Shown one piece after another: positions 1 through 895 of a DNA stretch of 64,000 nt (within the stretch, counting starts at the first letter, position 1; each line of letters begins with the position of its first letter). The notes beneath the pieces were generated by a model. That model saw nothing but the letters and a program-made list of their open reading frames with translations, searched no databases and was not told the DNA's origin. The position numbers and the translations under genes were made by a program. This DNA comes from a bacterium (lineage in GTDB: Bacteria; Actinomycetota; Acidimicrobiia; Spongiisociales; ZC4RG35). The DNA lies in the NCBI GenBank assembly GCA_028819345.1, contig JAPPLW010000110.1:1-64000 (forward strand), read 5' to 3'.

Positions 1-246
1 TACAACGCTGACCTGGGATCATATAGACCGCTAGGGTGTTGGGGGAGGGCACCCAAGAACCAGGGTAGAGGTCCGTCGTTTTCGCGGGATAGTGGTGGTT
101 TTCGTTGAGGGAGGCGGGAGTTTGAGGGCGGGTCCTGACATCTGGTTTCTGTCTCCTCCAGATGGGACGGACGGGGGGACCTGGGAAGCCGGGAGGGGCG
201 GAAAGCCGGTCTTCGGGAGGGTAGGTGGAGTAAAGTGGTACAAAAG
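1..246. other. Non-coding region upstream of mraZ
   Basis: No convincing gene is seen. The one open frame here (minus strand, 31-243) is proline-rich, low in complexity and looks like a by-product of purine-rich sequence. A stem-loop can be drawn at 132-168: GTCC (132-135) pairs with GGAC (165-168) and CATCTGG (139-145) with CCAGATG (158-164), with a 3-nt bulge. It has no U-tract, so it is not a clear terminator. I looked for RNase P RNA landmarks and found none. Confidence 0.4.
215..238 (+). promoter_or_regulatory. Candidate MraZ-binding repeats
   Basis: GTGG occurs at 225-228 and 235-238, exactly 10 bp apart, with a degenerate third copy (GGGA) at 215-218. MraZ proteins are known to bind short G-rich direct repeats with about one helical turn of spacing in front of their own operon. 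These repeats lie just upstream of the putative -35 box of mraZ, which suits autoregulation. Only two good copies are visible, so this is a candidate. Confidence 0.4.
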
Positions 247-795: not shown

Positions 796-895
796 GACTG
801 TGGCTCATAGCCGGCTCCCTGGAGCTATAGAAGGCCCCAATCCGCCCGCTTCCATTAGGCGCCGATCTTCGGGGGGCCGGCTATGAGCCATGGTT
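796..895 (+). promoter_or_regulatory. Long RNA hairpin covering rsmH RBS and start codon
   Basis: Bases 796-824 pair with 867-895 to give an uninterrupted 29-pair helix if G-U pairs are allowed. The core is a perfect 15-bp inverted repeat (801-815 with 876-890). The 3' arm contains the G-run used as ribosome binding site (871-876) and the rsmH ATG (883-885). The wobble pairs exist only in RNA made from the plus strand, which points to function in the mRNA. An alternative pairing, GGCCCC 833-838 with GGGGCC 873-878, would also hide the ribosome binding site. Confidence 0.65.

Follow-up and report, generated by a model that had tools for sequence, protein, structure and literature searches.

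The window, i.e., the whole stretch of DNA analysed here, comprises positions 1–64,000 of the forward strand of contig JAPPLW010000110.1 (assembly GCA_028819345.1), from a bacterium placed by GTDB in Acidimicrobiia; Spongiisociales; ZC4RG35. Its division and cell-wall cluster opens with mraZ, which is followed by rsmH (mraW). Few bacterial genes are as strongly conserved as the latter, which is nearly always found in this cluster. Based on its PF01795 match, the rsmH product is a 16S rRNA decoding-region methylase, and its specificity for C1402 is taken from the literature (PMC5053481). ATG 883 is the correct rsmH start, as shown by an in-frame TAG upstream of it at 856–858 and by the position of the conserved RsmH domain, which starts at 898. 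About 100 bp 5′ of mraZ, GTGGA at 225 and GTGGT at 235 (window 225–240, 10 bp spacing) resemble MraZ-binding repeats, which suggests that mraZ may be autoregulated in this genome, as in other bacteria. The features considered below are the following.

337–762, + strand: mraZ, an ORF with its stop codon at 760–762, 33 nt 5′ of the helix; mraZ also lies upstream of the element in relatives
796–824, + strand: 5′ arm of the basal helix, from the 29-pair fold and covariation in 44 relatives and 27 distant ones
830–852, + strand: apical hairpin, GAAG 830–833 paired with CUUC 849–852 around the loop 834–848, conserved across the class
842–847, + strand: CCGCCC loop core, equal to 16S rRNA 1399–1404; C845 corresponds to C1402, which RsmH targets
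867–895, + strand: 3′ arm of the basal helix, from fold and covariation, containing the G-run, the start codon and rsmH codons 2–4
871–876, + strand: GGGGGG, the probable Shine–Dalgarno sequence, fully paired (P(unpaired) ≤0.01)
883–1800, + strand: rsmH (mraW), an ORF with a PF01795 match at 898–1788 (E 4e-89); ATG 883–885 is paired with 806–808 (CAT)

The hairpin between mraZ and rsmH

RNA folding of positions 780–910 pairs 796–824 with 867–895 in 29 uninterrupted pairs, six of which are G–U. At the centre of this helix, 801–815 (TGGCTCATAGCCGGC) is the exact reverse complement of 876–890, i.e., a 15-bp inverted repeat. The minimum free energy (MFE) of 780–910 is −67.3 kcal/mol, compared with a mean of −49.0 kcal/mol for shuffled sequences (z = −4.8), and none of 200 shuffles was as stable. 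An earlier, sequence-only reading of this DNA had described the 29-pair helix with its central repeat and its G–U wobbles, and had placed the G-run and ATG 883 in the 3′ arm; sequence and folding bear out all of these points. While right about the helix, this reading missed the apical loop at 825–866, which turned out to be the most conserved part of the element.

The G-run 871–876 and ATG 883–885 both lie inside the 3′ arm, with P(unpaired) values of 0.00–0.01. Making 868–899 single-stranded is calculated to cost ~34 kcal/mol, and because of this cost a simple RNA thermometer appears unlikely. Occlusion of the start codon by the helix is very probable in the window's order. The start codon is buried across most of this order and in one small-genome family (f61), not in the whole class, and the rsmH start is often found 3′ of the helix, outside it, in members of the Acidimicrobiales type. 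Since burial of the start codon is not class-wide, the apical loop, rather than occlusion, is the constant part of the element.

Conservation and distribution

Searched at the DNA level, relatives far beyond the genus proved to carry the same mraZ–rsmH interval. Covariation was counted in two alignments, A1 with 44 diverse loci and A3 with 27 more distant sequences that carry an extra hairpin, whereas an automatic alignment (A2) mixed both strands and was left out of the counts. The members of A1 share the basal helix, the middle stem and the apical hairpin. Counted on this named structure, A1 has 89.6% paired cells and double changes in 19 of the 37 pairs; its 128 double-changed cells compare with a shuffled mean of 50, a number as high was reached in none of 500 shuffles, and every slid register scored far lower. 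RNAalifold applied to A1 returned the same core structure. Even the start codon covaries, from CAU–AUG to CAC–GUG, where rsmH starts with GUG (L066). Double changes occur in 25 of the 36 predicted pairs of A3 as well. The compensatory changes in relatives, which the sequence-only reading had proposed to look for, are therefore present in both alignments.

Oppositions of G–U outnumber those of A–C, with 74 vs. 26 in A3 and 82 vs. 61 in A1, and this excess favours sense-strand RNA as the folding molecule. Taken as a structured cis-regulatory RNA, the element shows a conserved fold, compensatory changes and a position adjoining one gene, and positions 796–895 are almost certainly part of a conserved structured leader RNA in the mraZ–rsmH mRNA. 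The A3 sequences, which are of the Acidimicrobiales type (e.g., L072, L092, L139), additionally contain a second hairpin, whose purine-rich loop (GGGGAGAAAUCCC or GGGGAGACAUCCC) is conserved; the resulting three-way junction is absent from the window's order.

The distribution was searched with a covariance model built from A1, which rewards loop sequence to some extent. This model matched 163 of 247 Acidimicrobiia genomes and 70 of the 71 sampled genomes of the window's order. No credible element was found outside the class Acidimicrobiia in a phylum-wide sample of 296 genomes, where the one match (L232, G137:C2:18419-18500) was rejected as a palindrome that matches in the helix only and has no rsmH beside it. 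This locus of an actinomycete genome is an almost perfect palindrome, with arms of ~50 bp and a short loop. Scanning 84,980 species for exact occurrences of the loop pattern yielded 95 stretches, and 77 of the 80 pattern loci that were fetched adjoin mraZ and/or rsmH. The other three are from Mesorhizobium (L070, L095, L135), in which GGCCCC-CTCTCCGCCCGC sits in an apparent repeated intergenic palindrome; these are unrelated to rsmH.

According to their titles, the pattern loci come from Acidimicrobiia, Acidimicrobiales and Microthrix-type organisms, and also from MAGs labelled only Actinomycetota or otherwise. Some MAG records titled Bifidobacterium breve or Acidobacteria (L087, L108, L132; L075, L099, L131) carry the Acidimicrobiia-type mraZ–rsmH element together with genes of this type, suggesting that their titles are probably wrong. 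Within the Acidimicrobiia, the element was not seen in six members of family f10, in most of which mraZ and rsmH are close or overlapping.

The apical loop, 16S rRNA and the mraW motif

The loop at 825–866 contains the most conserved sequence of the element. Its CCGCCC core is present in 44/44 sequences of A1 and 27/27 of A3 (71/71), while the helix sequences vary widely, and the core is also found in divergent covariance-model loci which were not picked by the loop pattern, although the model gives some weight to loop sequence. In family f61, with genomes of ~1 Mb and 35% G+C, the loop reads CCCUUACUCCGCCCA amid A+T-rich DNA. Family f6 has GGAUUG/CAGUCC in place of GGAAG/CUUCC as its closing stem and retains the loop CCCUACUCCGCCCG. 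The loop is predicted to be mainly single-stranded, with a mean unpaired probability of 0.46–0.99 along ACUCCGCCCG and with weak internal GGC–GCC pairs possible; the window's own MFE fold favours a slightly different pairing at 830–852. A pseudoknot between the loop and downstream G-rich sequence was rejected as a general feature, because only 44 of 120 members have a GGGYGG partner within 300 nt.

The base which RsmH methylates at N4 is C1402 of 16S rRNA (E. coli numbering) (PMC5053481). In a comparison with full-length 16S rRNA sequences from five relatives, the 9-mer ACUCCGCCC of the loop matches ACACCGCCC, a site covering C1402, at eight of nine positions, and this site is the best match among the ~1,540 positions of 16S rRNA. 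A match of this quality covering C1402 would arise by chance with a probability of 0.004 in random sequence and of 0.03 in shuffled versions of the loop. The longer, 14-nt loop is not distinctive (shuffle p 0.29), longer versions add nothing, and the window's own loop, AAUCCGCCC, resembles 16S rRNA less upstream of the hexamer. The resemblance of the loop to the C1402 region is suggestive of rRNA mimicry, a mimicry which consists of one strand of 6–10 nt, noticed after the fact, in a C-rich sequence. No convincing 16S-like loop was found in the rsmH leaders of 54 genomes of other Actinomycetota.

A structured RNA upstream of mraW in Actinomycetales, the mraW motif (RF01746), was reported by Weinberg et al. 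2010 (PMC2864571), and its transcription has been reported in C. glutamicum (PMC3890552). This motif is a precedent for structured RNA in this position, which qualifies the remark of the sequence-only reading that it knew of no such regulation described for rsmH, even though the present element is not a member of RF01746. The RF01746 model matches 10 of 198 genomes of the phylum, with the motif located in this interval in some Actinomycetales, finds nothing in the Acidimicrobiia genomes sampled, and gives no match in the window or its relatives, either at E values up to 10 or at the gathering score (50 bits).

Both RNAs are long imperfect hairpins with one conserved apical loop, and both are found in Actinomycetota between mraZ and mraW (rsmH). 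However, the apical loop is ACUUCCCC in the RF01746 carriers fetched (Actinomycetales), whereas that of the Acidimicrobiia element is ACUCCGCCC with its CCGCCC core. In addition, the rsmH start is outside the hairpin in the RF01746 examples read, whereas the element of the window buries it. Because of the other loop, the start outside the hairpin and the failure of the model at every threshold applied, the element was not filed under RF01746, and both RNAs may serve the same end. R1, a model from the relatives, gave weak scores on mraW loci; these were dismissed as evidence of homology, because an unrelated palindrome in the same set scored better. No Rfam family matches the element at gathering or permissive thresholds, apart from sub-threshold chance matches, and no published description was found in a literature search that reached few subscription papers. 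The element is a class-wide structured RNA absent from Rfam.

Possible mechanisms of rsmH control

The mechanism that we tentatively favour, without granting it an even chance, is a translational switch based on autorepression, with RsmH binding to an rRNA mimic carried by the rsmH mRNA. The leader would thus hold back the translation of rsmH. The closed helix hides the ribosome binding site and the start codon in the window's order and in f61, as fold and covariation show, and CCGCCC in its ACUCCGCCC context would imitate 16S rRNA 1396–1405 around C1402, for which the loop comparison gives moderate support. RsmH that is free of new 30S subunits would bind the loop, perhaps methylate it, and stabilise the closed helix, by which its own synthesis would be repressed. 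With many unmethylated 30S subunits present, RsmH would be drawn off and the start codon would more often be open.

Binding by RsmH had been a guess in the sequence-only reading, and what now points to it comes from the apical loop; we infer it as a real, if somewhat doubtful, possibility. A short loop may be too little for RsmH, given that the E. coli enzyme methylates 30S subunits and not protein-free 16S rRNA (PMC5053481) and that METTL15, its human relative, shows little sequence specificity in RNA binding and accepts both helix-44 fragments and poly(A) (PMC10828496). It is likewise possible, on balance a little short of probable, that the leader displays a bait of the C1402 region across the class, possibly methylated at C845, and that, at the head of the dcw operon, RsmH output thereby follows the availability of unmodified 30S subunits. 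If true, this mechanism would directly link 30S maturation to dcw operon expression, would give one of the few examples of target-mimic autoregulation in a housekeeping rRNA-modifying enzyme, and would guide the interpretation of the mraW motif, an orphan RNA of Corynebacterium and Mycobacterium.

A precedent is offered by sgm and kgmB, which encode antibiotic-resistance enzymes unrelated to RsmH. For sgm, a CCGCCC hexanucleotide common to the leader and 16S rRNA has reportedly been proposed as the binding site, and we know of no large covarying hairpin kept across a whole class that has been described for either gene. An rRNA target sequence is likewise found in the present leader, in which CCGCCC equals 16S 1399–1404. 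No clear sgm relative, sought as a control, was found in 396 genomes. Both sgm and kgmB encode 16S methylases that act at or near G1405, in the same helix 44 stretch as C1402 of RsmH, and both are negatively autoregulated at translation according to PMC2791848 (citing Kojic 1996 and Vajic 2004). The same logic, in which a protein binds the leader and lowers its own synthesis, is known from the autogenous leaders of ribosomal proteins such as S15 and L20 (PMC8470358, PMC6097659). In contrast, the candidate binder here is an rRNA-modifying enzyme, and the leader resembles its substrate site.

Rather unlikely, in our estimation, is a translational switch whose loop has a binding partner different from RsmH, e.g., another 30S maturation factor, a small molecule or a second RNA, with the match to 16S rRNA being a coincidence of C-rich sequence. 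An invariant loop on covarying stems also marks other leaders that bind proteins or ligands, the match to 16S rRNA is short with a chance level of only 0.4–3%, and the mraW motif of Actinomycetales has a different loop, ACUUCCCC, at the same place. However, the sole directly downstream gene encodes the enzyme whose target is the loop core, and no ligand or partner RNA is indicated, the core-pairing GGGYGG within 300 nt being limited to the 44 of 120 members given above.

Ribosomes finishing mraZ might instead open the helix, so that RsmH would be made in proportion to MraZ and the loop would serve folding only. The helix does lie directly between the two genes, it starts ≤15 nt from the mraZ stop in 38 of 116 members, and this stop almost abuts it in the small-genome family. 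However, the distance from stop to helix varies between −16 and 271 nt around a median of 26 and is not conserved, the window's 33 nt exceeds the expected reach of a terminating ribosome, and the invariant loop would be left unexplained. Such translational coupling is thus improbable, and opening by these ribosomes, as suggested in the sequence-only reading, is not a conserved feature.

Slightly less probable again is a sensor of ribosome state that works without RsmH binding, in which ribosomes carrying m4Cm1402 would best translate buried start codons and thereby exert positive feedback on rsmH. In a 2026 preprint (PMC13317604), translation of mRNAs with a stem over the start codon or early codons (cmpA and isp of B. 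subtilis) was dependent on MraW. The window's helix likewise spans both the start codon and early codons, and the tie to C1402 methylation is shared. However, the stems of these Bacillus genes, which are genes other than mraW, are shorter and weaker and lack a conserved rRNA-like loop. A strengthened stem blocked translation even in the wild type (PMC13317604), and the window's helix is far stronger. Feedback of this type leaves the invariant loop unexplained, and distant members retain the element with the start codon outside.

A DNA-level palindrome or a transcription attenuator, i.e., an operator or an intrinsic terminator, is very improbable: while the arms are near-palindromic and the minus strand folds too, a T-rich tail follows the helix in 0/120 members (mean 1.1 T per 10 nt, none with ≥6), a search of the window found no terminator-like or promoter site, and the compensatory changes along the whole helix and the excess of G–U over A–C favour sense RNA over a DNA palindrome.

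For RsmH autoregulation itself, another output is needed in many Acidimicrobiales-type members, because their rsmH start lies beyond the helix and occlusion is not the mechanism everywhere. There, the leader might act by blocking a standby site, through RNA stability, or through a leader ORF. Where the helix starts ≤15 nt from the mraZ stop, coupling to mraZ translation may contribute.

Individual loci depart from the window's arrangement in further ways. In L080 and L144, the helix AUG is replaced by AUA with the GUAU/AUAC pairing kept, and the only in-frame start found in L080 is ~90 nt further downstream. In family f6 (L229, L230, L231, L252), the helix AUG is out of frame with rsmH. In L229, which was read closely, this AUG opens a leader ORF of 10 codons whose UGA overlaps a GUG start (GUGA), and the switch of family f6 may act via a leader peptide and coupling.
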